Source: Polyangiaceae bacterium
Lineage (GTDB): Bacteria > Myxococcota_A > Polyangia > Polyangiales > Polyangiaceae
Direction of reading: 5' to 3'
DNA length: 45,426 nt
NCBI GenBank assembly: GCA_023150915.1
Contig: JAKLKA010000045.1
Span: 1 to 45,426 of the forward strand
The notes below the pieces were generated by a model. That model made no database searches. It was not told where the DNA came from and saw only the letters and a program-made list of their open reading frames with translations. This document shows, in pieces, positions 5,274 to 19,268 of this stretch (positions are counted from its first letter, which is position 1; the number at the start of each line of letters is the position of its first letter). The translations under genes and the position numbers were made by a program.

Positions 5274-6308
5274 CTACGGCTGGTAGCGCACCCCGACGAA
5301 CAGCCGAAACCGCGGCGTGGTGACCCCGGCGAAGCGCTCGGCGCTGGCGCCCCCGGCGGTTTCGCGCGTCTCGGTCGACAGCGGTAGCCCGGTGCCCCCG
5401 CCCAAGGAAAGCGCCAGGGGGGCGTCGTGGACCGGCTCCGAGCGCACGCTGACCAGCCACTCGGCGGGGATCAGCACGCCGCCCTGGACCTCGGACGCGG
5501 CGTCGCGTCGGCCGGGCTGCGAGACCAACGAGGGCAGGGCGAAGGCTTCGAGCTCGAGCGAGAGCCACTCTTGCCAGAGGTCCGCGCCCAGGCCCACGGC
5601 AGCGTAGGCTTGCGAGCCGAGGCGTGCGGTGGCGAACGGAACGGCGCGACGCAGGCGGGCGCCGAGCTCGACCCCGGCGTGCAGCGGACCGGCCTGCCAC
5701 CCGCCGGCGATGGTGGGCGCGAGCGTGAAGCCGCCCGAGCCGGCGTACGCGTCGTCGTCACCCAGAGGGAGCGCGAGCTCGGCGCGCGCCTTCACCGCGA
5801 ACGCGCCCTGCCGCCACGGTACGCCGACACCCACCCGCGGGTCGCGCACCGCGACCGCCTTCAGCGGCGGCGCGCTCTGCGAGGTGATGCCTTCGGCGCC
5901 GGCTCCGGTCTGGTGCAGCACCAGCGGGGTCGCCAGCGTCAACTCGAGCTGGTCCGACAGGCCGTAGGCGTAGGCCAGCGAGAGACCCACGCCGCCGCGA
6001 ACCACGTTCACGTCACGGCCCTCGGGATCGGGGGAGGGCACGCTCAGCAGCACCGGGCGGTCGAGGTAACCGACCAGCGCCGCGAACGCGAGCGCGCCAC
6101 GGCGGGGCGCTGCTGCCGAGGCAACGCTGGCGAAGCGGGTTTCGCCCGCGGTCCACCACAGCGTGTCGGCGTCGAAACAGGTCGAGACGCCCGAGGCGGG
6201 GCTGCAGTCGGCGGCCGCCGCGTGCCCGGGCGTGAGCAGGGCCGCGCCGCTGAGAACCAGGGCGAGCGCGCCGATCCGGGCGCGTCTCGGGTCGGCGGCC
6301 TGGGGCAT
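5274..6308 (-). CDS. Probable outer-membrane beta-barrel protein
   Basis: 344 residues starting MPQAADPRRARIGALALVL. A signal peptide ending GHAAA is followed by DCSPASGVSTCFD, with two cysteines that can pair. The remainder is repeated amphipathic beta-strand sequence with many Gly and Ala residues, ending FRLFVGVRYQP. It resembles generic barrel or transporter-like exported proteins of Myxococcota; no substrate can be named. The start at 6308 is immediately preceded by a TATAAC -10-like box, which argues against the longer reading frame that would run into maf. It is divergent from maf and convergent with the OPX operon. Confidence 0.7.
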   Translation of the reverse strand: MPQAADPRRARIGALALVLSGAALLTPGHAAAADCSPASGVSTCFDADTLWWTAGETRFASVASAAAPRRGALAFAALVGYLDRPVLLSVPSPDPEGRDVNVVRGGVGLSLAYAYGLSDQLELTLATPLVLHQTGAGAEGITSQSAPPLKAVAVRDPRVGVGVPWRQGAFAVKARAELALPLGDDDAYAGSGGFTLAPTIAGGWQAGPLHAGVELGARLRRAVPFATARLGSQAYAAVGLGADLWQEWLSLELEAFALPSLVSQPGRRDAASEVQGGVLIPAEWLVSVRSEPVHDAPLALSLGGGTGLPLSTETRETAGGASAERFAGVTTPRFRLFVGVRYQP

Positions 6309-6317
6309 GGTCGCCCC

Positions 6318-6323
6318 GTTATA
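6318..6323 (-). promoter_or_regulatory. -10-like box TATAAC, minus strand
   Basis: On the minus strand TATAAC ends nine nt before the ATG at 6308, so a transcript starting at the usual distance would have almost no leader. No good -35 is visible (GTGCAA at an 18-nt spacing). Confidence 0.4.
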
Positions 6324-6373
6324 TCGGACTTCGGACACAGCTTGCACCCGAGCATCCGTGTTATGCGGGGCGC

Positions 6374-6982
6374 GTGATCCGCGCCGATCGTCCCTTGGTC
6401 CTGGGCTCTGCGTCGCCACGCCGCCGGCAGATCCTGGGCGATCTGGGGATCCCGCTGGTGCAGCGCCCGGGGCACTCGGACGAGAGCTTGCGCTCGGGCG
6501 AAGCCCCGCACCCATTTCTGGAGCGGGTGACCCAAGACAAGCTGGCCAGCGTGCTTTCGCTGGTCGCGGGCGAGAGCTGGGCAGGTGTGATCGTGGCCGA
6601 CACCATCGTGGTCGTCGACGATCAGATCTTGGGCAAGCCCACCGATCCCGGTGACGCGATCCGCTTGCTCGGGCGCATCGTGGGGCGCACGCACACGGTC
6701 TACACGCGCTATCTGGTGGCGACGGCCGAGGCGCCCGCCGCGATCGCCTGCGGGCGCACCGTCGAGACCCGGGTCACGATGCGCGCGGCCAGCGCCCCCG
6801 AGATCGCCGCCTACGCGGCGACCGGCGAGGGGCTCGACAAGGCCGGGGCCTACGCGGCGCAAGGCATTGGAGCCTTCTTGATCGCGCGCATCGACGGCTC
6901 GTACACCAACGTGGTGGGTCTGCCGGCCTGCGAGGTGATCGAGGATCTGTGTCGCATCGGGCTGCTCGAACGGTACCCATGA
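6374..6982 (+). CDS. maf: Maf-family nucleoside triphosphate pyrophosphatase
   Basis: 202 residues from GTG 6374. The protein opens with LVLGSASPRRRQIL, the Maf nucleotide-binding signature, and continues with the VADTIVVVDDQILGKP segment (catalytic Asp and Lys) and the closing GIGAFLIARIDGSYTNVVGLP. Maf proteins hydrolyse non-canonical or modified NTPs to the monophosphate in the cytoplasm. Length is normal for the family. The stop overlaps the start of the next gene (ATGA), so the two are translationally coupled. Confidence 0.93.
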   Translation: MIRADRPLVLGSASPRRRQILGDLGIPLVQRPGHSDESLRSGEAPHPFLERVTQDKLASVLSLVAGESWAGVIVADTIVVVDDQILGKPTDPGDAIRLLGRIVGRTHTVYTRYLVATAEAPAAIACGRTVETRVTMRAASAPEIAAYAATGEGLDKAGAYAAQGIGAFLIARIDGSYTNVVGLPACEVIEDLCRIGLLERYP

Positions 6983-8355
6983 CCGGTCGAGCGCCGCTCC
7001 GCGACGCTCTGGTCGTCGGCCTGGTCGGAGCAGCGCTGCGCGCCGCCATGGTCGTGTGGGCCGCCGGGCGCTTTCCGCCGGTCGAAGACGCCCGCTTCTA
7101 TCATCACCTCGCCACTCGCCTCGCCGAGGGGCACGGCTACACCTGGCGCTGGCCGGACGGGGTGGTCACCTTCGTGGCCCACTATCCGGTCGGCTACCCC
7201 GGGCTTCTGGCGGCGCTGTATTCCGCGTTCGGCCCCAGCCCGGCGTGGGGGATGGGGCTCAACGCTGCCCTGGGAGCGCTGAGCGTAGTGGCGGTCCACC
7301 GCGTGGCGGCGACCAGCACCGGTCGGCGAGGTGCGGCCCTGGCGGCGCTGGCGGTGGCCTTGCACCCGGCGCTGGTCGCTTACACCCCGGCGTTGATGAC
7401 CGAGGGGGTGACAGCGTCGCTCTTGGCGATCGGGGCGTGGGTCGCCGTGGTCGCGCGCAGCGCGACCCGTCCGCTCGGCTGGTGGCTGGTGCTCGGAGCG
7501 GTGCTGGGCCTCGCGACCCTGGTACGTGGCCAGAGCCTGCTGGTGCTTCCGCTCTTCGCGCTGATCGCCGCGGGCGCTCGCGCACGCTGGCGCGCTCTCG
7601 CGCTCGCGACCGCGGTGGTCACGCTCGCAGCCGCGTGCGTGGTGCTCCCCTGGACGGCGCGCAACTGCCGGCGGATGGACCGCTGCGTGGCGGTGAGCGC
7701 GAACCTGGGGTGGAACCTGCTGATCGGGGTCACCGAGCACGCGAACGGGACCTTCGTGCCGATCACGGGCGAGAGCGTTCCCGAGCGCTGCCGGACGGTG
7801 TTCGGCGAGGCCGACAAGGACGCCTGCTTCGCCTCGGAAGCGCTGCGCAGGGTCCGGGCGCGGCCGCTCCGCTTCCTGGGCTTGGTGCCGCAGAAGCTCG
7901 CTCACACCTTCGAGTACTGCGGGGCGGCGGGGTGGTATCTGCGGGCCTCGGGGCCACAGAGCTTCTCCGAGCGCGCCAAGCTCGGCCTGGGCGTGGTCGA
8001 AACGGTGTTCCAGCGCCTGCTCGTGCTGCTCGCCGTGGTCGGGGTCGCGCGGACGCCCGGGCCGCTGCCGCGTGTGCGACGGCTGCTCGCGATCGCTGCG
8101 GGGGCGCTCTTGCTGTCGCCCATGGCCTGGCTCTCGTACGTCGGGCTGACGCTGGCCGCGGTGCTGGCGGGCCGAGGGCTCGCCCAGCGGCCGGCGCTTG
8201 CGCTGGGGGCTTCTGCCGTCGGCACCGCCCTCTTCACCCACGCGGTCTTCTTCGGTGCCGGGCGCTACTCGCTGGTGGTCTTTCCGCTGGTCGCCGCCAT
8301 GGCGGGAACGGCCCTGGCTGGCCGGCGCGGCCCGGGTGAATCGCCCGCGTTTTGA
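6979..8355 (+). CDS. Integral membrane glycosyltransferase, GT-C/ArnT-like (GT39-type)
   Basis: 458 residues with about ten hydrophobic segments. The first loop contains VEDARFYHHLATRLAEGHGYTW, the Asp-containing N-terminal pattern of polyprenyl-phosphate-sugar-dependent GT-C enzymes. A further membrane-proximal motif, TLVRGQSLLVLP, and the periplasmic VLPWTARNCRR match the same superfamily. It probably transfers a sugar from a lipid carrier to an envelope acceptor; donor and acceptor are unknown. It overlaps maf by four bases. Its last codons contain the TTGACA of the next gene's promoter. Confidence 0.75.
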   Translation: MTGRAPLRDALVVGLVGAALRAAMVVWAAGRFPPVEDARFYHHLATRLAEGHGYTWRWPDGVVTFVAHYPVGYPGLLAALYSAFGPSPAWGMGLNAALGALSVVAVHRVAATSTGRRGAALAALAVALHPALVAYTPALMTEGVTASLLAIGAWVAVVARSATRPLGWWLVLGAVLGLATLVRGQSLLVLPLFALIAAGARARWRALALATAVVTLAAACVVLPWTARNCRRMDRCVAVSANLGWNLLIGVTEHANGTFVPITGESVPERCRTVFGEADKDACFASEALRRVRARPLRFLGLVPQKLAHTFEYCGAAGWYLRASGPQSFSERAKLGLGVVETVFQRLLVLLAVVGVARTPGPLPRVRRLLAIAAGALLLSPMAWLSYVGLTLAAVLAGRGLAQRPALALGASAVGTALFTHAVFFGAGRYSLVVFPLVAAMAGTALAGRRGPGESPAF

Positions 8356-8381
8356 CATCCCGCGAGCGGCCGGGTGATACT
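8352..8381 (+). promoter_or_regulatory. Sigma70-like promoter overlapping a stop codon
   Basis: TTGACA (8352-8357), an 18-nt spacer and GATACT (8376-8381) precede ATG 8403 by 21 nt; a GGAGG ribosome site is at 8388-8392. The -35 element overlaps the stop codon of the upstream glycosyltransferase gene. Confidence 0.65.
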
Positions 8382-8402
8382 TCGCTCGGAGGTCGCCCCG
8401 AG

Positions 8403-8666
8403 ATGCCGCTGATCGAGACCGAAGAAGCCGCGCGCCGGCTGGCTCGCGCCATTGCCAGTGATCTTTCGCTCTACAATGAAGAGAAGATCGTGCGCGGCAT
8501 CGAGCGGGACTCGCTGTTCGACGAGCTCGCGGAGGAGATCGAAGAGGGGCGAGCGCTCTACAAGAGCCGCGTGGCTCCCGATCTGTATCAGCGGAATTTT
8601 TACGACCGCGCGCTGGTCGACATCCTGATCAAGTCGAAGGGGCACATCAAGAGCCCCATCTGGTAG
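8403..8666 (+). CDS. Small conserved helical protein of unknown function
   Basis: 87 residues, highly charged and predicted helical, with the pattern LYNEEKIVRGIERDSLFDEL and an end KSKGHIKSPIW. No signal peptide, TM segment or known catalytic motif. The start is fixed by ATG 8403 after a GGAGG site; an in-frame extension to 8352 would begin inside the promoter. It is ten bases upstream of the pseudouridine synthase gene and likely cotranscribed with it. I do not recognise a named family. Confidence 0.75.
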   Translation: MPLIETEEAARRLARAIASDLSLYNEEKIVRGIERDSLFDELAEEIEEGRALYKSRVAPDLYQRNFYDRALVDILIKSKGHIKSPIW

Positions 8667-8675
8667 CAGGCGCGG

Positions 8676-9632
8676 ATGCGCCGCTTCGAAATCGACGCGG
8701 ATCAGGTCGGAGAGCGCGTCGACAAGCTGCTCGTCCGGCTCTTGCCGGGGACGTCCCGCGCCACCGTCCAGCGCTGGATCAGCGAGGGTCGGGTGCGGGT
8801 GGACGGCAGCGCGTGCCGGCCGCGCGACGTGCCCGGAGTCGGCTCGGTGCTCGAAGTCGAGCCGGGGCCGCCGCCGCCCTCCGAAGCGGTCCCTGACGCC
8901 AGTGTGCAGTTTCGCGTGGTGTTCGAAGACGAGCACCTGGTGGTGGTCGACAAGCCCGCGGGGCTGGTGGTCCACCCGGCGCGCGGGCACTGGCACGGCA
9001 CGCTGGTCAGCGGCCTTCTGGCGCGGGCGAGCTTCGGGGGCGCACCCGCCGATCCCCGGGACCCTGCCGGCGCGCTGCGGCCCGGCGTGGTCCATCGGAT
9101 CGACAAGGGCACCAGTGGCCTCTTGGTGGTCGCGAAAGACGAGGCCACCCGCGAGGGCCTGAAGCGGCTTCTCTCGCAGCACGACGTCGAACGCGAGTAC
9201 CGAGCGCTCACGCTCGGGGTGCCGTCGGCGGGGCGCATCGAGACGTTGCATGGGCGCGACCCGCGCTCGCGCCTGCGGTTCACCACCAAGCTGCGTGAGG
9301 GGCGCCGGGCCGTGACTCACCTGGCGGTGCTCGAGCGCCTGGCCGGTGGCCGGGCGGGGTACGTCGCGTGCCGGCTCGAGACCGGGCGAACCCACCAGAT
9401 CCGCGTCCACCTGGCCGAGTGCGCCAAGACCCCGATCTTGGCCGACGCCTTGTACGGCCGACGCTCCGTGGACCCCGAGCTCGTTGCCATCGAAGAGCGG
9501 CTCGAGCGCCAGGCGCTGCACGCCCTCTCGCTGGGCTTCGTCCACCCGATCAGCGGCGAGCGCCTGCGATTCGAGTCGCCGTTGCCGGCGGACCTCCAGA
9601 CCGCGCTCGAGGCCTTGCGCTCACTGCGCTAG
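8676..9632 (+). CDS. rluD: RluA-family (RluD-type) pseudouridine synthase
   Basis: 318 residues. An N-terminal S4 RNA-binding domain (about 1-65; ERVDKLLVRLLPGTSRATVQ) is followed by the catalytic domain, with VDKPAGLVVHP and the signature HRIDKGTSGLLVVAK, where D143 is the expected nucleophile. RluD-type enzymes isomerise uridines in helix 69 of 23S rRNA. The S4 domain and motif support RluD over RluA, but substrate choice is inferred. Its 3' end overlaps the end of the convergent AglD-like gene by 12 bases. Confidence 0.9.
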   Translation: MRRFEIDADQVGERVDKLLVRLLPGTSRATVQRWISEGRVRVDGSACRPRDVPGVGSVLEVEPGPPPPSEAVPDASVQFRVVFEDEHLVVVDKPAGLVVHPARGHWHGTLVSGLLARASFGGAPADPRDPAGALRPGVVHRIDKGTSGLLVVAKDEATREGLKRLLSQHDVEREYRALTLGVPSAGRIETLHGRDPRSRLRFTTKLREGRRAVTHLAVLERLAGGRAGYVACRLETGRTHQIRVHLAECAKTPILADALYGRRSVDPELVAIEERLERQALHALSLGFVHPISGERLRFESPLPADLQTALEALRSLR

Positions 9633-10598
9633 CGCTTCGTCGGCGCCCTGGCGCATCAGCTTGGGAAAGCGCGCGCGCAAGATCGCGAGCGCCACGAAGC
9701 CCACCACCACCGCCCACCAGAGCGTGGCGAAGCGGATCAGGAGCATGGCGCTGGTGGCCGCGCTCTGCGGCACCCGACCCAGGCGCACCAGCTGTTCCTG
9801 GATCATCGCTTCGGCCACGCCCAGCCCTCCGGGCACGGGGATGACCGCACCGGCCAAGGTCGCCGTGGCATAGAAGAACATGGCCAGCGGGGCAGGGACC
9901 TCGACGCCGAAGCCGCGCACCAAGAGGTAGAGCGCCAGCCCCTCTCCGCCCCAGCCCAGCACCGAGAGGAAGCTCGGCCAGAGGAGCGCGCTCGGGCTGG
10001 CCACGATGCGCAGGCTCTCGAACGCCTCTTCCAGCTTGGGGGCGAGCGCGCGGAGCCGCCCCGAGCGGCGCCTGAGGCGGGCGATCGCCCACTCGCCAGG
10101 GGCGCGCCAGATCACCAGCGACAGGCCGCACAGCACCGCGGCCGTGCCGATCCCCGCCCAGATCAGGCCCCCCGAGAATCCCAGGCTGCCGACCACGATC
10201 AGCGTGATGACTCCGATCACGTCGGTGATCCGTTCGGCGAACACGATGGGTGCGGTGCGCGCCGCGGGCACGCCGTGGGTCTCGGCCAAGACCGCGCTCT
10301 TGAAGACCTCGCCGACCTTTCCGGGGGTGACCGTCAGCACGAACCCCGAGAGGAAGACCAGCAAGCTGTCGAGCTTGGGCACGCCTCGGATCTCGAGACG
10401 TGCCAAGTAGTACTCCCACTTGGCGAAGCGCAGGCCGTAGTTCGCCGAGGCGAGGGCCAGCGCGAGGGCGAACGCGCTCCAGCGAAAGCGCCCGAGCGAA
10501 GCCCCAATGTCGCGGTACCCCGCCCACGCCACGAACACGCCGTAGACCACGACGCCGAGCAGCATCGCGATCACCAGCTTGCGCAAGAAACCCTTCAT
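9621..10598 (-). CDS. AglD/MprF-N-type (UPF0104) integral membrane protein
   Basis: 325 residues from ATG 10598, with seven to eight hydrophobic segments. Family-like features include RFAKWEYYL, the TPGKVGEVFKSAVL loop and the late PVPGGLGVAEAMI loop, which match the lysylphosphatidylglycerol-synthase transmembrane (flippase-like) family. Members are linked to lipid or lipid-linked-sugar translocation. The start overlaps the stop of the upstream 64-residue gene (ATGA). The longer in-frame extension would run antisense through that gene and is unlikely. Substrate unknown. Confidence 0.8.
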   Translation of the reverse strand: MKGFLRKLVIAMLLGVVVYGVFVAWAGYRDIGASLGRFRWSAFALALALASANYGLRFAKWEYYLARLEIRGVPKLDSLLVFLSGFVLTVTPGKVGEVFKSAVLAETHGVPAARTAPIVFAERITDVIGVITLIVVGSLGFSGGLIWAGIGTAAVLCGLSLVIWRAPGEWAIARLRRRSGRLRALAPKLEEAFESLRIVASPSALLWPSFLSVLGWGGEGLALYLLVRGFGVEVPAPLAMFFYATATLAGAVIPVPGGLGVAEAMIQEQLVRLGRVPQSAATSAMLLIRFATLWWAVVVGFVALAILRARFPKLMRQGADEALAQ

Positions 10599-10789
10599 CG
10601 CACGCGGCGCCGCCTCGCCAGCACGATGAAGTAGACGAGGGCCACGACCACGATGCCGCTTCCGAGGACGCCGATCCCCCAGGCTGGCCACGAGTACTTG
10701 CCTCGGGCCAGGCCCGGCGGGGGACGCTCGACCACGATGCGGGTGGTCTGAGTCGCCGCGGCGCCGGCATCGGTGACCTCGGTCTGCAC
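10595..10789 (-). CDS. Small single-TM protein coupled to the AglD-like gene
   Basis: 64 residues from GTG 10789: a polar Thr/Ala/Pro-rich part, one TM segment (WGIGVLGSGIVVVALVYFIVL) and a basic RRRRVR tail. That tail suggests the C-terminus is cytoplasmic and the N-terminal part is outside. The stop overlaps the next gene's start by four bases, good evidence that it is real. The frame stays open further upstream without a convincing start, so the N-terminus is uncertain. Possible accessory subunit of the flippase-like protein; no family recognised. Confidence 0.6.
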   Translation of the reverse strand: MQTEVTDAGAAATQTTRIVVERPPPGLARGKYSWPAWGIGVLGSGIVVVALVYFIVLARRRRVR

Positions 10790-10899
10790 GCTGAGCCGGC
10801 TACCACGCGCGTGGGCGTCGGGGCAACCCTTCCCGCGGCCACGAAGCCGGCGCTTTGCGCGCCCAGGGGCGGGCGATCCGGGTATGCTGCCGCCCTTCC

Positions 10900-11904
<1,005 letters not shown>

Positions 11905-11905
11905 C

Positions 11906-12694
11906 TCACTTCGCCCGGAACACGGCCTGGCGCCGCTCGGCGTGCGCAGCCAGCCCTTCTCTGGAGTCGTCGGTGGTGAGCAGCTCGGCCGCGAGCGCCC
12001 GCTCGAGGGCCAGCCCTTGATCGAGCGGCAGCTCGAGGGCGGCGTGCACGGCGCGCTTGATGCGCCCCACCGCCAGCGCGGCCTTGTCGGGCGGCGTGAA
12101 CTTGTGGGCATAGTCGCCCACCTTGGCCTGGAACGACTCGAGCGAATCCGTCTCCCACAGATAGTGCACGAGCCCCCAGCCCAGGGCTTGCTCCAGCCCG
12201 AAATCTTCGCCCTCGATCATGATCTGTAGCGCGCGCGCGGCGCCCACCAGCCGCGTGAGGCGCTGGCTGCCGGCCGGCAATAGGCCGAGCTTCACCTCGG
12301 GTAACCCGAGGCGGAAGGGCCCCTGTCGCGCGATCCGGATGTCGCACGCCATGGCCAGGTCGAAGCCGCCGCCGCTGGCGTGACCATTCAACGCGGCGAT
12401 GCACAGCTTCGGGGTCTCTTCCAGCCGCCGCAGCGTCTCGCTGACGTGCATGCTGAAGTAGTACTTGAAGGTCGCGTCGGACTCGCGCAAGAGGTCGAGA
12501 TCCGCCCCGCTGCAGAAGTGCCGGTCGCCCGATCCGGTGAGCACCAACACGTGGACGTCGGGGTCGAAGCGGGCCTCGACGATGGCGTCGTCGAGCTCCC
12601 GCATCATTTCGTGCGTGTAGGCGTTGGTTGGCGGGTCGTCGAGCGTGATCCGCGCGACGCCGTGATCCGTCTTGTAGCCGACCAGATTGCTCAC
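11906..12694 (-). CDS. Enoyl-CoA hydratase/isomerase (crotonase) family protein
   Basis: 262 residues from GTG 12694, with GGGAGG upstream. Crotonase fold motifs are present: SGADLDLL, the oxyanion-hole loop GHASGGGFDLAMACD and LPEVKLGLLPAGSQRL, which retains the first catalytic Glu (LPEV). At the position of the second catalytic Glu of rat hydratase the sequence reads RALQIM, so it appears to carry Gln. Simple hydratase activity is therefore uncertain. It shares a 100-bp divergent region with the ACP/ketosynthase operon and could act on the same acyl chain, an inference from position only. Confidence 0.85.
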   Translation of the reverse strand: MSNLVGYKTDHGVARITLDDPPTNAYTHEMMRELDDAIVEARFDPDVHVLVLTGSGDRHFCSGADLDLLRESDATFKYYFSMHVSETLRRLEETPKLCIAALNGHASGGGFDLAMACDIRIARQGPFRLGLPEVKLGLLPAGSQRLTRLVGAARALQIMIEGEDFGLEQALGWGLVHYLWETDSLESFQAKVGDYAHKFTPPDKAALAVGRIKRAVHAALELPLDQGLALERALAAELLTTDDSREGLAAHAERRQAVFRAK

Positions 12695-12770
12695 GAGCCC
12701 TCGGTCCTCCCTGAGACCCGAACCCTAGCGCGGAATCGAAGCAGACGCTTCAGTTCCGCCGAGTTCGCGC

Positions 12771-12776
12771 TATGCT
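12771..12776 (+). promoter_or_regulatory. -10-like box TATGCT before the ACP gene
   Basis: TATGCT lies 18 nt upstream of GTG 12795. The -35 region (TTCAGT at a 16-nt spacing) is weak. It sits in the divergent region shared with the crotonase gene. Confidence 0.4.
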
Positions 12777-12794
12777 GCGCTCTCTCAGGCCCCC

Positions 12795-13058
12795 GTGGAT
12801 CACGACGAACTCAAGCGAGCCATCAAGCACATCATCGTCGAAGAGCTGGACCTCCGCGGTACGGAGCCGACGGGGATCGCCGACGACGCAGCGCTGTTCG
12901 GTTCCGGTCTCGGCCTCGATTCGCTGGATGCGCTGCAACTGGCGCTGGCCATCGAAGAGCGCTTTGGTGTGCGCTTGCCCGAGGGCGAGGCCGCGCGCCC
13001 CGTGTTCGCTTCGGTCTCGGCGCTCGCGCGCGAGGTCGAACGCTTGCGCTCGGGTTGA
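12795..13058 (+). CDS. Acyl carrier protein, stand-alone
   Basis: 87 residues from GTG 12795. The four-helix ACP pattern is clear, with GLGLDSLDALQLALAIEE, where S43 is the expected 4'-phosphopantetheine attachment site. Acidic helix II and length are normal. It is followed after only three bases by the first ketosynthase gene, so it probably carries the growing chain for this operon rather than general fatty-acid synthesis. Attachment would need a phosphopantetheinyl transferase encoded elsewhere. Confidence 0.92.
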   Translation: MDHDELKRAIKHIIVEELDLRGTEPTGIADDAALFGSGLGLDSLDALQLALAIEERFGVRLPEGEAARPVFASVSALAREVERLRSG

Positions 13059-13061
13059 TCC

Positions 13062-15161
13062 ATGACGGCCAGCCGGCAGCGGGTCGCGGTCACGGGGGTG
13101 GGGGTGGTTTCGGCACTGGGCAACACGGCGCCCGAGACGTTCGCGAGGCTCTGCGCGGGGGAGCGCGGTTTCGGGCCGGTGACCCTGTTCGACGTGACGG
13201 CTCAGCGCTGCCAGCTGGCGGCCGAGGTTCGGCTCGACCCGCGCGCGCGGCCCTGGGCAGGGACCGAGCCCGGGTCGCGGACCGACCAGATGGCCGTGGC
13301 CGCGGCGCGCGAGGCGCTGGCGCACGCCGGCCTCGACCGGCCCGAGCGCGAGCTTTCGCTGGCCATCGGCGGCACGACGGCGGGGATGCTCGAGGCCGAA
13401 GGGGTCCTGGCCGAACAGAGCGAGCTCGCCCCCGCGCTCGCGGCAGAACGCCTGTTGTCCTATCCGCTCTCGACCCCCCTCGAGCGAGTGCGCGCGGCGC
13501 TCGGGCTCGAGGGCCACCACGCCACGGTGTGCAGCGCTTGCTCGAGCGGGGCCAACGCCATCGGGCTCGGCGCCAGCTGGATCGAAAATGGCCGCGCGTC
13601 CCGCGCGCTGGTGGGTGGGGCCGACGCTCTCTGCCGCCTGACCTTTGCGGGGTTCGACGCGCTGGGGGTGATGTCGCCGGGCCCGTGCCGGCCCTTCGAC
13701 GCCGCCCGCAGCGGTCTCACGCTGGGCGAAGGTGCCGCGTTCCTGCTGCTCGAGTCGGCCGACGCCGCTGCCCAGCGCGGCGCGCGGGTCTTGGCCTGGC
13801 TCGACGGATGGTCGGTCGGCGCCGAGGCGCACCACGTCACCCATCCCGAGGCGTCCGGTGCGACCGGGGCGCGCCTGATCACCGGCGCCCTGGCCCGGGC
13901 CCGCGTGGCGCCTCACGAGCTCACCTGGGTCAACGCCCACGGGACGGCCACGCTTCAGAACGACGCGGCCGAGGCCCGGGCGCTGGCGCTGGCGTTGGGC
14001 GAAGCGCTGGGGCAAGTGTTCGTGTCGTCGTGCAAGGGGCAGATCGGGCACACGCTCGGCGCCGCAGGCGCCATCGAGGCCGCGATCACCGTGCTCGCCG
14101 TCGAGCAGGGGCAAGTCCCACCCACCGCCGGGCTCGAAGCGCCCGAGCGCGAGCTGGGGTTCAGACACGTGATCGGCCGGGCGCAGGCCATGCCCGTCCG
14201 CACAGCGCTCTCGACGTCGTTCGGGTTCGGTGGGGTCGGCACCGTGCTGGTGTTCAGTGAGCGCGACCGCCCGCTGCCCCCGACCGAGCGATCGGTCGAG
14301 CGGCCCTGCGTGCGCGGCGTGGCGGCCTTGGCCACGCCGCCAGCGGAGCCGCTGGTCGACCGCCTCGACGTCGCGCGTTCGCGCCGCTTCGATCGCGCCT
14401 CTGCTCTGGTCACGCTCTGCGCCTCGGCCGCGCTCGGCGCTGGGGCGGGCTCGCGAGAGGGCATCGGGCTGGTCGCCGGCTCTGCCTTCGGCAACGTCGA
14501 TCGAACAGTCGAATTCCTGCGCCGCTTCCTCGAGCGCGGACCGCGCTTCGCAAGCCCCGCCGACTTTCCCCACCTGGTGCCCTCGGCGCCGGCGGGCAAT
14601 GCGTCCATCTATCTCGGGCTCACGGGGCCCGTGCTGGCGACGGCCGATCTCTCGACCTCTGCCGAGTCGGCGCTGTGCATCGCGCTTTCGCTGATCGAAG
14701 ACGGTCAAGCAGAGCAGATGATCGCGGGCTCGGCCGAGCCTCACGACGCGATCACCGAGCGGCTCTTGGCTCCGCTGCATCGATCTCAGGGCTCGAGTCC
14801 TGGCCCGCGGGGCGAGGGCGCCGCGTTCGCACTGGTGGCGCGTACCGGCGCCGCGTCGGATCCGACGGTCGCGTTCTGGTCCGACAGTGCGCATCCCGCG
14901 GACCTTCCGCCTCCTGGCGGCCGCGCGCGGGTCTTCGGCTTCGGCGGCGCCGAGGCCTTCGTGCGGGCGTCGAGCTGGCGGGACGCGCCGCTCGAGCTCT
15001 TGACCTTCGACGGGGTGCCGCGCGAAGCCTGGGGCGGGTTCGGCGTGGTGCGCGCCGTCGAGGCGCTCTGGGCGGGCACCGCCGATCGCACGCTCTTGGT
15101 GTCGCCGGCGCGCGGGCAGACGTACGCTTTCGTGTTCGAACGGCGAGCCGCCGATCCATGA
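13062..15161 (+). CDS. Ketosynthase fused to a degenerate ketosynthase/chain-length-factor-like half
   Basis: 699 residues. Residues 1-400 are a complete FabF-type beta-ketoacyl-ACP synthase with active-site C160 (SACSSG), H293 (NAHGTAT), K325 and H330 (CKGQIGH). Residues 410-699 are a second thiolase-fold half: the stretch 505-560 (APAGNASIYLGLTGP, then MIAGSAEPHD) aligns with a ketosynthase active-site region, but the Cys position is Ser (S531) by ungapped alignment. The arrangement resembles a type II polyketide KS and its inactive chain-length factor joined in one chain. The start ATG 13062 is three bases after the ACP gene, and the end overlaps the next gene (ATGA). Confidence 0.85.
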   Translation: MTASRQRVAVTGVGVVSALGNTAPETFARLCAGERGFGPVTLFDVTAQRCQLAAEVRLDPRARPWAGTEPGSRTDQMAVAAAREALAHAGLDRPERELSLAIGGTTAGMLEAEGVLAEQSELAPALAAERLLSYPLSTPLERVRAALGLEGHHATVCSACSSGANAIGLGASWIENGRASRALVGGADALCRLTFAGFDALGVMSPGPCRPFDAARSGLTLGEGAAFLLLESADAAAQRGARVLAWLDGWSVGAEAHHVTHPEASGATGARLITGALARARVAPHELTWVNAHGTATLQNDAAEARALALALGEALGQVFVSSCKGQIGHTLGAAGAIEAAITVLAVEQGQVPPTAGLEAPERELGFRHVIGRAQAMPVRTALSTSFGFGGVGTVLVFSERDRPLPPTERSVERPCVRGVAALATPPAEPLVDRLDVARSRRFDRASALVTLCASAALGAGAGSREGIGLVAGSAFGNVDRTVEFLRRFLERGPRFASPADFPHLVPSAPAGNASIYLGLTGPVLATADLSTSAESALCIALSLIEDGQAEQMIAGSAEPHDAITERLLAPLHRSQGSSPGPRGEGAAFALVARTGAASDPTVAFWSDSAHPADLPPPGGRARVFGFGGAEAFVRASSWRDAPLELLTFDGVPREAWGGFGVVRAVEALWAGTADRTLLVSPARGQTYAFVFERRAADP

Positions 15162-17005
15162 GCGCAGCGGTCGTGGCCTTCGGCGCGGTGTCGGCCCTGG
15201 GCCGGCTCGAGGCGGCAGTGCTCCCCGGCCAGCTCGGCGCGCGCGCTGCCTCTGCCGTGCGCCACGATCCCGAGCTCGAGGCGGCCGGGCTCACGAAGCC
15301 GTTCGCCGCGCGGGTGCCGAACCTGGCGCTCGAGCCCGGCGCGGATCGCGCCGCGACGCTGCTCGCGATCGCCGCGGACCAGCTGATGGAACGCCTGGCC
15401 GTTCGCATGCCGGACTTCCGCCGGCGCCGGCTGGCCATTGCGCTCGGTACGTCGGGCGGCGGCATGCCGAGCTTCGTGCAAGCCATCGCTCGCCTCGATG
15501 CCGGGCAGCCGTTGGACCGCGAGCTCGCGCGTCGCTGCCCGTACTTCGGGCCGATGGACGCCCTGGTGTCGCGCCTGGGAGCCGACCTCGAGGTGAGCAC
15601 CCAGGTGCTCGCTGCGTGCGCGTCGTCGACCTTCGCCATCGGCCAAGCCTTGCTCTGGCTCGACACGGGAGCCGCCGATCTGGTCATCGCCGGGGGCTAC
15701 GACGCGCTGTGCCCATTCATCGCTTCCGGGTTCGAGTGCCTGGGTGCCACCTGCCAGGCGCCGGCCCCGTTCCGTGCTGGGCGCGCCGGGCTCGCGCTGG
15801 GTGAGGGCGCGGCGCTTCTGGCCCTTGCGCGGGACGAAGCCCCGACCTGTGGCGCGGTGCTGGGCTTCGGCGCCAGCAGTGATGCGCTGCACGTGACGGC
15901 GCCCGACCGAACCGGGAGCGGGCTCGTGCGGGCGGCGCGGGCCGCGCTCGGCGACGCAGGGGTCTTGGCCACGGAGATCGGGCTGGTCAGCGCCCACGGC
16001 ACCGGCACCCCCTACAACGACGCGGCTGAAGCCCAGGCCCTCGGCGACCTCTTCGGCGAGCACGCGCCGGCCGTGGTGGTCCACGCCTTCAAGGGCAGCG
16101 TGGGTCACGCACTGGGCGCAGCCGGAGCCCTCGAGACCCTGGCCGCGCTGGCCGCGCTCGAGCAGGGCGTGGCGCCGGCCACCGCCGGCCAGGGCGAGGT
16201 GGATCCGCTGCTCACCGCGCGGCTGGTGGAGCAGAGCGAGCCCTGCGCCGCGCGCACCTGCCTCAAGCTGTCGAGTGCCTTCGGCGGTGCCAACGCGGCG
16301 TTGGTCGTGGCGTCCGAGCTCGGCCGGGCACGCTCGGTCGAGCCGCGTGGCGTGCAGCTCGCGTTCCTGGGCGAGCCCGTGCTGCAGGCATCGGGCGCCG
16401 ATCTGGCGGGGCGCGTGCTCACCGACCCGATGAAGCTCGGTCGCATGGACGGCCTGTCGTCGCTGGCTGTCGCGGCCGCGGTCGGCGTGCACGGGCGGGT
16501 GGCGATGACCGAACGCACGCTGCTGGTCGTCGGCACCGCGGTGGCCACCCTGGAGATCGACGCCGATTTCGAGCGGCGTCGGCGACGCCGCGGGCCCGAG
16601 CCGCGGCGCTTTCCGGCCACGTCGCCCAACCTGTGCGCGGGCGAATGCACCATCGCGCTCGGTCACTCTGGTCCGTCGTTCAGCGTGGGGGCGAGCCCCG
16701 CGGCGGCCATCGAAGCGCTGCTCGTGGCCCACGATTGGATTGCGTCGGGCCGCGTGGACACGGCCATCGTGATCGCCGCCGAGCACATCGGCGACACGGT
16801 CCGGGCGCTGTGGGCGGCCGGCGAGTGGCCGCTGCCCGCCCACGGATCGGTCGCGGCGATGCTCACCGCGGCCGGGCCAGGGAGCGCGCTCTCCCGGGCC
16901 CGCCTCGCCTCGGACCTGTCCGATGCGCTGGCCTCCGGCGGCGCGCTCGGCCCCGAGGCTCCGGGCTGGCCGTCCTTTCGCCGCGCAGCGCGCCAGACGA
17001 TTTGA
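15158..17005 (+). CDS. Second ketosynthase with a degenerate ketosynthase-like C-terminal half
   Basis: 615 residues from ATG 15158. Residues 1-390 form a ketosynthase with C154 (AACASST), H280 (SAHGTGTPYND), K312 and H317 (FKGSVGH). Residues 400-615 are a shorter ketosynthase-like half containing LGHSGPSFSVGASPAAAIEA; no Cys stands at the corresponding active-site position (GASPA, about 511-515). An Arg-rich loop (FERRRRRRG) precedes it. No ketoreductase, acyltransferase, dehydratase or ACP domain is fused. Overlap with the preceding gene implies matched synthesis of the two didomain ketosynthases. Product unknown. Confidence 0.83.
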   Translation: MSAAVVAFGAVSALGRLEAAVLPGQLGARAASAVRHDPELEAAGLTKPFAARVPNLALEPGADRAATLLAIAADQLMERLAVRMPDFRRRRLAIALGTSGGGMPSFVQAIARLDAGQPLDRELARRCPYFGPMDALVSRLGADLEVSTQVLAACASSTFAIGQALLWLDTGAADLVIAGGYDALCPFIASGFECLGATCQAPAPFRAGRAGLALGEGAALLALARDEAPTCGAVLGFGASSDALHVTAPDRTGSGLVRAARAALGDAGVLATEIGLVSAHGTGTPYNDAAEAQALGDLFGEHAPAVVVHAFKGSVGHALGAAGALETLAALAALEQGVAPATAGQGEVDPLLTARLVEQSEPCAARTCLKLSSAFGGANAALVVASELGRARSVEPRGVQLAFLGEPVLQASGADLAGRVLTDPMKLGRMDGLSSLAVAAAVGVHGRVAMTERTLLVVGTAVATLEIDADFERRRRRRGPEPRRFPATSPNLCAGECTIALGHSGPSFSVGASPAAAIEALLVAHDWIASGRVDTAIVIAAEHIGDTVRALWAAGEWPLPAHGSVAAMLTAAGPGSALSRARLASDLSDALASGGALGPEAPGWPSFRRAARQTI

Positions 17006-17104: not shown

Positions 17105-17587
17105 ATGCCCTCGTTTGCCTCTTTGAGCTGGCTCGGCGTGCTCGTCCCCCTGACCTTGGCGGGGTGCGCGGGCCACACCATTCCGAACACCGACGTCGAG
17201 GACACCACCGACAACCGCAAGGTCGTCGACTTCTGCGAAGAGTACCGACGCGCCGTCGAGCAGAAGAAGGTCGGGCGGCTGCTTCAGCTGGCCGATCCCA
17301 GCTATTACGAGGACGGCGGCAACACCGACGCGGCCGACGACCTCGACTACGCCGGCCTGCGCACCTACCTCGAGGAGCGCTTCGCCAAGACCAAGGGGAT
17401 CCGGTACGAGATCCGGTACCGGCGGGTGGCCAAGGGGCGCAACGCCGCGGTCACGGTCGATTACACCTACAGCGCCAGCTACAAGATCCCGACCGACGCC
17501 GGGGACGTCTGGCGTCACGTCGTCGCCGACAACCGGCTCGAGCTCGTACCCTCGGGCGAGAGTTACCGCATCGTCTCCGGCATGTGA
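17105..17587 (+). CDS. Lipoprotein, SnoaL/NTF2-like size, unknown function
   Basis: 160 residues. The signal peptide ends LTLAGC, with the lipidated Cys at residue 21. The mature part (VVDFCEEYRRAVEQKKV, LLQLADPSYYEDGG, LRTYLEERFAK, then beta strands ending YRIVSGM) has the helix-then-sheet order and size of an NTF2-like fold, suggested only by pattern. ATG 17105 is chosen because it starts the signal peptide; the frame stays open to 17042. It lies 99 bases after the ketosynthase operon and may or may not be part of it. Confidence 0.75.
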   Translation: MPSFASLSWLGVLVPLTLAGCAGHTIPNTDVEDTTDNRKVVDFCEEYRRAVEQKKVGRLLQLADPSYYEDGGNTDAADDLDYAGLRTYLEERFAKTKGIRYEIRYRRVAKGRNAAVTVDYTYSASYKIPTDAGDVWRHVVADNRLELVPSGESYRIVSGM

Positions 17588-17692: not shown

Positions 17693-18613
17693 ATGAAGAA
17701 GCCCACCGTGGCATTCGTCGGGACGGGGGGAGCAGCACGCGGAATCGCACACCTCGGGGTGCTGAAGGCCTGCGAAGAGCTGGGCATCGTCCCCAGCATC
17801 TTCGTCGGCGCCAGCGCCGGGGCCATCGTCGCGGCCACCTACGGGCAGGGCATCCCGCTCGACGTCTTGCTCGATGGCTACCGCCTGCCGTGGAAGCGCC
17901 GGCACCATGGTCCGCGCTTCCACCTGGACACGTTCTTCGGCCTGCCTTCGCTGCGCCAGCTGTTCGACCCCGGGTACCTGGCCAGCGGGCTGTTCTCCCT
18001 CGACAAGCTCGAGCGCTATCTGCGGCGGCACCTGCCGGTCAACGACTTCCGAAAGGTCGACAGTCGCATCGTCGTGACCTCGGTGGACGTCGATCGTGCC
18101 GAGCGCGTGCTGTTCGGCAAGGGGTACGACGCCGAGACCCCCATCAGCCGGGCGGTCGCCGCCTCGTGCGCCGTCCCGGGTCTGTTTCGACCCTACGAGA
18201 TCAACGGCCGCTATCACCTGGACGGCGAGGTCGCGCGCACGCTGTCGGCCGACGTCGCGGTCGAGGCCGGCGCCGACATCGTGATCGTGTCCAACATCTA
18301 CCGCCCCGCCGAGGGCGAGCGCCACCCCCGCAGCATGGCGCGCCGTGGCCCCCTCTCGGTGTTGAACCAGACGCTGAACATCATGCTCACCGAGAAAGAG
18401 CGGCGGGGCCTCGACCTGTATTCCCACACGCACCCGCGCTGCACCTTCATCGACATTGCGCCCGACATCGGTCGCTTCGGCTACCTGAATCGGTACGCCG
18501 CGCGCTCGCTGGTGCTGCGCGGTTATCGCGCCGCGCTGCAGACGCTGGCCCACGCCAAAGAGCGCGGCGTGTTCGACGTGCCGCGGCTGGGCGCGCAAGG
18601 CCGGCTGAACTGA
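17693..18613 (+). CDS. Patatin-like phospholipase
   Basis: 306 residues, no signal peptide. Patatin motifs are complete: oxyanion-hole GTGGAARG (10-17), nucleophile elbow GASAG with S41, and the catalytic Asp in YHLDGE (D177). This is the RssA/NTE-like bacterial group acting as serine acyl hydrolases on lipids. The C-terminal region (TLNIMLTEKERRGLDLY, then FIDIAPDIGRFGYLNR) is typical of single-domain bacterial members. It converges with the minus-strand lipoprotein gene, leaving one base between stops. Confidence 0.9.
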   Translation: MKKPTVAFVGTGGAARGIAHLGVLKACEELGIVPSIFVGASAGAIVAATYGQGIPLDVLLDGYRLPWKRRHHGPRFHLDTFFGLPSLRQLFDPGYLASGLFSLDKLERYLRRHLPVNDFRKVDSRIVVTSVDVDRAERVLFGKGYDAETPISRAVAASCAVPGLFRPYEINGRYHLDGEVARTLSADVAVEAGADIVIVSNIYRPAEGERHPRSMARRGPLSVLNQTLNIMLTEKERRGLDLYSHTHPRCTFIDIAPDIGRFGYLNRYAARSLVLRGYRAALQTLAHAKERGVFDVPRLGAQGRLN

Positions 18614-18614
18614 C

Positions 18615-19268
18615 TCAGGGCAGCGTGAACTCTTCGGCCATGTCCACGATCGCGTAGCGGTTGCCCCGGGGTCGCAGCACGAACACGATCTCGTCGCCGA
18701 ACAGGCGCGTCTTGCCGTACTTCGGCGCGGTGATCGGCACGCGCACCACGACGTCGTCGCCCTGCGCAACCACGCCCAGGGCCCGGGGGGGGCGCAGCGC
18801 GCTCAGATCGGCGGCGCGATAGGTCTCGAGCTCACCCTCGCGAAACACGGCGGCGCCGCCCAGCGCGCCGTAGTCCAGCCGCGAGAGGCGCGTCTCCCAG
18901 TACTGCAGCGCCTTCTGCCGCCCGGCCATGGCGCCGGCGCTGAGCCAAGCGTCTTGCGCGACCAGCGGCCTGAGCTCGTCGATCGAGCCATGACCGACCG
19001 CGCGGAAGAAGCCGCGCACCACCTCGCGCGCCGCTTCTGGATCTTGCGGCGCGCGCAGCACCACGATGCCCTGCTCGGGGTGCGCGACGCGCGTCGGCGC
19101 CGGCAGCTCGGGGGCGGGGTCGACCGCGATGCCGGGCGCGCGCCGCGGGCTGGCATCGAGCGTGGTGGTCGTCTGAAGCGACCCGCGCTGCGCGCCGCAG
19201 CCGACGGCCAAGGCCACAGTCAGCCAGCCGAGGGGACCGGGCTCAGAGAGTTTCGACCAGTGGATCAT
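18615..19268 (-). CDS. Lipoprotein coupled to the glutamine-amidotransferase-like gene
   Basis: 217 residues from ATG 19268. The signal peptide ends ALAVGC. After a Thr/Pro/Arg-rich linker comes a globular domain (EAAREVVRGFFRAVGHGSIDELRPLVAQDAW, described by its ends; then LFGDEIVFVLRPRGNRYAIVDM) resembling NTF2-like stress or transport-associated lipoproteins. Its start lies 26 bases inside the end of the upstream amidotransferase-like gene, so the two are coupled. No family name is certain. Confidence 0.75.
   Translation of the reverse strand: MIHWSKLSEPGPLGWLTVALAVGCGAQRGSLQTTTTLDASPRRAPGIAVDPAPELPAPTRVAHPEQGIVVLRAPQDPEAAREVVRGFFRAVGHGSIDELRPLVAQDAWLSAGAMAGRQKALQYWETRLSRLDYGALGGAAVFREGELETYRAADLSALRPPRALGVVAQGDDVVVRVPITAPKYGKTRLFGDEIVFVLRPRGNRYAIVDMAEEFTLP

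Follow-up and report, generated by a model that had tools for sequence, protein, structure and literature searches.

The window analyzed here, 45,426 nucleotides of contig JAKLKA010000045.1 (positions 1 to 45,426) from assembly GCA_023150915.1 of a Polyangiaceae bacterium, carries on its forward strand three tightly packed genes that encode one acyl carrier protein (ACP) and two ketosynthases (KSs), KS1 and KS2, each with a C-terminal part that resembles a chain length factor (CLF). The ACP (positions 12795 to 13058) is a stand-alone protein of 87 amino acids with a GTG start codon and a GLGLDS motif, and it matches PF00550 (E = 1e-9). KS1 (13062 to 15161, 699 amino acids) begins 3 bp downstream of the ACP gene, and KS2 (15158 to 17005, 615 amino acids) overlaps KS1 by 4 bp. 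No further gene lies inside this operon, which encodes no acyltransferase (AT), ketoreductase (KR) or dehydratase (DH). An earlier note made from the sequence alone had described two different cis-fused KS/CLF-like proteins serving one ACP in an operon of this kind, and we confirmed its coordinates and lengths as well as the absence of AT, KR and DH genes from the operon.

Domains, catalytic residues and predicted fold

The N-terminal parts of both proteins are ordinary ketosynthases by profile, matching PF00109 as well as PF02801: residues 1 to 400 of KS1 (13062 to 14261), with C160, H293, K325 and H330, and residues 1 to 387 of KS2 (15158 to 16318; PF02801 at E = 8e-27), with C154, H280, K312 and H317. 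These four residues, which the earlier note had picked out, are invariant in both proteins in 12 of 12 aligned rows, the window included. (Genome G061, which the gene caller did not resolve, is in neither the 12-row alignment nor the locus counts given below; its KS2 entered one other alignment.) The equivalent of the active-site Cys in the C-terminal parts was also placed correctly in that note, at S531 of KS1 and about P514 of KS2. In the same 12 rows, the first position is occupied by S, A, G, E or Q and the second by P, G, L or D, and in neither case by Cys.

The C-terminal part of KS1 (residues ~401 to 699; 14262 to 15161), searched alone, matched PF00109 (E = 1.4e-7) and just reached the cut-off of 25 bits for PF13723 (25.2 bits, E = 1.4e-5); the whole KS1 protein scored 23.8 bits with PF13723, below that cut-off, and Escherichia coli ApeC scored 225. 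The C-terminal part of KS2 is half-size (residues 388 to 615; 16319 to 17005) and, searched alone from 16322 to 17005, matched PF00109 (E = 8.2e-7), and it was not among the listed PF13723 matches. Neither C-terminal part matched PF02801, so that each amounts to about half a ketosynthase. The two are members of one family (hhalign probability 99, E = 2.8e-18), and the Pfam domains of KS1 and KS2 are solely of ketosynthase/thiolase type, with none of the further domains of polyunsaturated fatty acid (PUFA) synthases. The description of the C-terminal halves as degenerate and ketosynthase-like thus holds as far as the fold and the missing Cys are concerned, and by these profiles each part is better described as a reduced CLF than as a degenerate ketosynthase of full length.

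That they have a thiolase fold, as had been proposed, was borne out by the Pfam and NCBIfam profiles and by predicted structures of the whole proteins. The AlphaFold (AF2) model of KS2, built on a family alignment of 21 sequences, has a pLDDT of 94.7 and a pTM of 0.96, and that of KS1, built on 12 sequences, has a pLDDT of 84.7 and a pTM of 0.91. When these models were compared with the PDB by Foldseek, with TM-scores taken on query length, the fused KS-CLF of PfaC (6riw) was the first match of KS2 (0.72, over 744 alignment columns with gaps) and the third match of KS1 (0.78, over 881 columns with gaps), whereas the single KS chains among the matches listed scored 0.51 to 0.59 overall and 0.55 to 0.59 with KS2. 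A gain of this kind is expected if the C-terminal part occupies the position of a CLF, and each chain is therefore predicted to form its own intramolecular KS/CLF pair. In predicted secondary structure, the CLF part of KS1 has additional strands and helices past the first thiolase-like stretch, and that of KS2 is shorter.

Conservation and neighboring genes

A KS2 profile (E = 1e-110) matched 70 of 183 genomes of the order, 66 of them in the family of the window and 4 in a second family; the matching genomes of the window's family include single-contig genomes of 11 to 16 Mb. The junction between KS and CLF is crossed by 68 of the 70 matches, the remaining 2 ending at contig ends, and 3 of the 70 have one internal stop codon. 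We then compared the window with loci from 11 relatives, 20 of the 70 KS2-bearing genomes and 5 further loci. With a codon-usage gene caller, at least one gene of the set was found in 34 loci and both KS genes in 28. In all 28, KS1 and KS2 are either neighbors (9 loci) or separated by a single gene that we call LolB-like (19 loci); these counts become 8 and 20 once a LolB-like gene missed by the caller in G115 is included. The ACP gene stands immediately before KS1 in 26 of the 28. The six loci in which both genes were not called are those of G317, G316, G339, G342, G314 and G051; the caller missed KS2 in G339, and similar misses are possible in G342 and G051. In the second family, KS2 and the LolB-like gene occur together in G314, G316 and G317, apart from KS1, and in G234 KS1 and the ACP gene lie at a contig edge, apart from KS2.

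Between the window and its nearest relative, G276, dN/dS was 0.126/0.62 and 0.159/0.75 for the two KS parts, 0.170/0.72 for the CLF part of KS1 and 0.149/0.71 for that of KS2, giving a ratio of ~0.2 in all four. The conserved arrangement in 28 of 28 loci, the 68 junction-crossing matches and these ratios exclude an assembly artifact, a frameshift or a pseudogene as the source of the fusions. They also bear on the idea that the fusions no longer condense anything and act as decarboxylases, acyltransferases or scaffolds left over from a lost pathway. The lack of dehydratase genes in the operon and the failure to find the LolB-like gene in the window's clade (see below) would suit such a vestige, but the invariant Cys, His, Lys and His of both proteins, the low dN/dS ratio in all four halves and the presence of KS2 in 70 of 183 genomes argue against it, and we regard it as highly improbable.

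Several kinds of neighboring gene recur with the operon. A small protein encoded just downstream on the same strand (17105 to 17587) is weakly SnoaL/NTF2-like (PF12680 at E = 0.0013, under the cut-off) and by eye has a lipobox-like N terminus (LAGC); a gene of this kind immediately follows KS2 in 25 of the 28 loci and lies within two genes of it in 26. Upstream and divergent from the ACP gene, on the reverse strand (11906 to 12694), is a crotonase-fold enoyl-CoA hydratase/isomerase (PF00378, E = 1.8e-51), which is found in that position in 18 of the 28 loci and is assigned to the set by neighborhood only. The earlier note had remarked on this divergent crotonase and on one altered catalytic Glu. 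Both observations stand, with the catalytic residues presumably having the roles of those in rat enoyl-CoA hydratase. The change to Asp, however, is local: the first acid is Glu in 16 of 18 orthologues and Asp only in the window and G276, and at the second acid G099 has Asp and the other 17 have Glu. The reading of the crotonase as an inactive enzyme is accordingly unsupported. In 12 of the 28 loci, a patatin-like gene (17693 to 18613 in the window) is one of the three genes that follow KS2; behind it in the window, on the opposite strand (18615 to 19268), is a gene for a second protein with very weak similarity to SnoaL (E = 0.018), which also begins with a lipobox-like stretch.

Another neighbor is the LolB-like gene, present in 20 of the 28 loci. 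"LolB-like" is a working name, based on a lipobox, on the company the gene keeps and on weak similarity to the C-terminal part of a GT2 protein encoded in the clusters of two distant genomes, G136 and G251 (E = 5e-9 and 2e-7 in a set of 362 proteins). Single open reading frames at loci L080 (13122 to 14801) and L136 (4404 to 6080) consist of a GT2 part (by Pfam in L080, by eye in L136), a lipobox-like stretch and then a part weakly related to the LolB-like protein.

Unfused relatives and origin

In two distant genomes of the same phylum, G009 and G136, the corresponding proteins are encoded separately: four genes, KSa with CLFa and KSb with CLFb, stand together with an ACP gene and a gene for a hotdog protein, which in G136 is of a FabA-like family (Pfam) and in G009 has no Pfam match and is 38% identical to its G136 counterpart. 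G003 and G251 have an ACP, a homologous hotdog protein, KSa and CLFa, with one such pair on the contigs read. An MMPL exporter is encoded in G136 and G003 (Pfam) and, by eye, in G251; G003 also has a LolA gene (Pfam), and in G136 the GT2 protein has a lipoprotein-like C-terminal part.

In a tree of 55 chosen ketosynthase rows, the KS1 rows and the unfused KSa of G009 and G136 form one clade (support 98/92), and KS2 groups with the KSb of the same genomes together with five other fused rows (93/96). A clade of KS2 and KSb alone was not drawn, nor was it rejected (p-AU 0.17). Forcing KS1 and KS2 into one clade cost 56.9 log units (p-AU 0.00037), which rejects a recent duplication of one KS-CLF gene. 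The separate groupings of KS1 and KS2 point to two old and distinct KS/CLF pairs as the most likely ancestors of the window pair. At least four switches between fused and separate CLFs are needed on this tree, a count that does not tell fusion from fission and in which a KS joined to a near full-length CLF was scored as fused. We infer that fusion was the later event, rather than fission. When 377 genomes of the phylum were searched with a KSa profile (E = 1e-115), 4 matched, including the two from which the profile came, and the unfused KSa thus has few close relatives in this sample. The gene set in the window most likely arose, by fusion and reduction, from a cluster resembling those that make aryl polyenes (APEs), with an ACP, a dehydratase and pairs of KS and half-size CLF.

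None of the other KS loci of the window's genome, G000 (a FabF on contig C106, a fatty acid synthase [FAS]-like set on C25 and a KS set on C5), shares the contig of the window, and in the tree they take other places. By eye, the set on C25 (L062, 11971 to 17858) comprises FAS genes for FabD, FabI, FabH, FabA, FabZ, a KS, an ACP and a phosphopantetheinyl transferase. A canonical APE cluster elsewhere in G000 was looked for and not found; PF13723 detected the C-terminal part of KS1 alone in that genome and no canonical ApeC. Neither PF22817 nor PF22818 had a match in the window's genome, and as PF22817 matched nowhere at all, genome-wide absence is not implied; a search for ApeP, run without a positive control, gave no match anywhere.

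Fused and unfused KS/CLF arrangements of other kinds were seen in several genomes. An APE-like set in G184 (L083, C6:34500-54400; 5614 to 13265) has a fused KS-half-CLF of 515 amino acids together with two ACP-like genes and a FabA-like dehydratase. Also in this set are a KS whose place in the tree is with E. coli ApeR (100/99) and, by eye, a 493-amino-acid phytoene-desaturase-like oxidoreductase. At L081 (G030, C32), L084 (G039) and L085 (G064), a KS is fused to a near full-length CLF-like part (~800 amino acids) and stands beside a separate KS and half-CLF; L081 also has a DUF3261 lipoprotein and an MMPL exporter. At L086 (G251, C398; 6220 to 14294), one ACP-like gene has six genes of KS or CLF type in its vicinity and, by eye, reductase-like genes beside them.

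A possible acyl-chain pathway

The explanation that we favor, with moderate confidence, is that the operon encodes one ACP and two condensing KS/fused-CLF enzymes derived from an APE-like system and that these probably make a polyene or other acyl chain destined for the cell envelope. Each KS part would take an acyl chain on its Cys and condense it with malonyl units carried by the operon's ACP, and the fused CLF would close a dimer-like pocket and set the chain length or the fit of intermediates. The distinct ancestry of KS1 and KS2 suggests a division of labor between them, perhaps comparable to that in APE biosynthesis, in which ApeR starts the chain and ApeO-ApeC extends it (PMC8253772). 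Reduction and dehydration could be supplied by enzymes encoded elsewhere, such as general FabG and FabZ; for cispentacin, too, crosstalk with FAS has been proposed by the authors of that study (PMC10698177). The crotonase, by its neighborhood, may help in these steps. The envelope is suggested as the destination by the lipoprotein and exporter genes of the relatives.

Several observations weigh against this explanation. The C-terminal parts are hardly related to E. coli ApeC (hhalign probabilities 3.7 and 0.2): a profile of the KS1 part gave 63 bits with ApeR, 14 with ApeO and 3 with ApeC, and one of the KS2 part gave 15 bits with ApeO and less than 0 with ApeC. In the tree, E. coli ApeO joined the KS1/KSa clade with a support of only 82/74, on a long branch. 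A second structural comparison (VIA) aligned the KS parts to the actinorhodin and ishigamide enzymes (1tqy and 6kxd) with Z scores of 50 to 60 and covered only those parts. KS2 had no match in at least 20 genomes of the family to which the window belongs. No dehydratase of the type found in the unfused clusters lies near the operon in any of the 28 loci, and in 13 genomes of the family that dehydratase had no strong match (best E = 1.4e-7; none at all in G085), compared with 2.9e-97 and 2.8e-80 in its source genomes; the weak matches in 12 of the 13 are presumably FabZ. Inspection by eye, without a KR search, revealed no KR near the operon or among the genes of the unfused clusters that were read. 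The LolB-like gene was not found (E 0.01) in the window's genome or in G276, G099, G111, G056, G244, G377 and G383, in a search that scored just 150 candidates in some genomes and missed the G251 relative, so that weak relatives can escape it; the failure to find the gene in these eight genomes suggests that it was probably lost in the branch of the window. Where it is present, its identity with DUF3261 or LolA was rejected, as the seven members scanned had no Pfam match and neither hhalign nor HMMER gave support against the E. coli proteins. With no LolB-like gene found and no exporter recognized near the operon (no exporter search was made), an envelope destination is unsupported in the window's clade itself.

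The NCBIfam scores raise another possibility, namely, that the C-terminal parts are cyclization factors (CYFs) like AmcG and that the operon makes a five-membered-ring acid of the cispentacin or coronafacic acid type; the ring or its precursor would then be a substrate of the crotonase or of the SnoaL-like protein. AmcG is the best NCBIfam model of the KS2 C-terminal part (E = 3.1e-7), AmcF-AmcG is likewise a KS with a reduced partner and an ACP of its own, and minimal amcB/F/G/H clusters and cispentacin-type clusters are reported from Stigmatella and Corallococcus (PMC10698177). The AmcG match nevertheless reaches only 30 of the 80 bits that the curated cut-off requires, and the C-terminal part of KS1 scores 16 bits (E = 0.006); with the AmcF model, KS1 and KS2 score 249 and 152 bits (cut-off 325). 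Furthermore, the unfused relatives have a dehydratase and some an exporter, like APE clusters, and the passages of PMC10698177 that were consulted describe no cispentacin system with two KS/partner pairs. We consider a ring-forming role improbable.

A role in fatty acid elongation comes somewhat closer. KS1 and KS2 would then lengthen an acyl-ACP from the cellular pool, with housekeeping KR, DH and enoyl reductase, to a very long or unusual saturated chain whose length is fixed by the CLF. The highest NCBIfam score of the KS1 ketosynthase is with FabF (344 bits), the operon lacks KR and DH, the KS-CLF of PfaC makes the final elongations in PUFA synthesis (PMC12895367), and a basic lipid would be in keeping with the occurrence in 66 genomes of one family. 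The FabF score is, on the other hand, below the equivalog cut-off of 494; the genomes of the family that gave no KS2 match fit such a lipid poorly, and the dehydratase and, in some cases, exporter and LolA genes of the relatives fit a polyene or a decorated lipid better. We think this role unlikely.

The APE-derived explanation can be taken further, to a widespread envelope-lipid or pigment pathway in which the two KS/reduced-CLF enzymes act in sequence on the one ACP, one to prime and one to extend, FAS supplies reduction, the crotonase replaces the dehydratase, and the Lol route has been lost and bypassed in the window's clade. In this full form it is possible and rather doubtful. The occurrence of the set in 66 genomes of one family makes it likely that the product matters to these bacteria.

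Comparison with known systems

The earlier note had called two KS/CLF-like didomains on one ACP an unfamiliar arrangement. APE systems are the closest in layout. They combine a KS with a CLF of about half its size that retains the first thiolase fold (PMC8358021), they contain two KS systems per cluster along with the ACPs ApeE and ApeF, and they encode the LolA-like ApeL, the RND protein ApeM and the LolB-like ApeN (PMC8253772). KS2 and the ACP of the window have as their best NCBIfam models PRK09185 (226 bits) and PRK09184 (65.5 bits), models that are also matched by ApeO (556 bits) and by the APE ACP2 (89.5 bits) of E. coli CFT073. Both scores are, however, below the curated cut-offs (407 and 70), and here the CLFs are fused in cis, both KSs have one and the operon is without KR and DH; among the unfused relatives, an MMPL exporter (G136 and G003) and LolA (G003) are features shared with APE clusters. 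We therefore class the set as resembling APE systems in its layout and in several components, without counting it as a member.

In a wide sense it has the components of a type II polyketide synthase, as read from its sequence: a catalytic KS, a KS-like partner without Cys and a discrete ACP. The enzymes for actinorhodin (1tqy) and ishigamide (6kxd) have the same KS fold and catalytic residues, but there the CLF is a separate chain; the actinorhodin CLF has 383 residues, compared with 211 in an APE CLF (PMC12664062). AmcF-AmcG pairs a KS with a reduced partner that lacks some CLF elements, on one ACP (PMC10698177), and it shares with KS2 the weak AmcG match described above; it consists of separate chains and of a single pair, and the AmcG score falls far under its cut-off. 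PfaC, a fused KS-CLF (PMC12895367), resembles the models in having KS and CLF on one chain. It differs in that the window encodes stand-alone chains of 615 and 699 amino acids with a reduced CLF and no megasynthase, and the identity is 16%.

Two fused KS/half-CLF proteins on one ACP were not found described in the open-access literature in PMC, and the terms "fused" and "fusion" and myxobacterial names were not found in PMC10132072. Fused KS-CLF chains (PfaC) and reduced partners (ApeC and AmcG) were thus known already, and to that extent the arrangement is less unfamiliar than had been thought; what appears to be new is the combination of both, in two proteins that share one ACP. Fused KS-CLF chains occur, then, outside PUFA synthases. 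With the CLF fused in cis, KS and CLF form one chain and their ratio is fixed at 1:1. This would make chain-length control easier to study, and unfused relatives are available for comparison.

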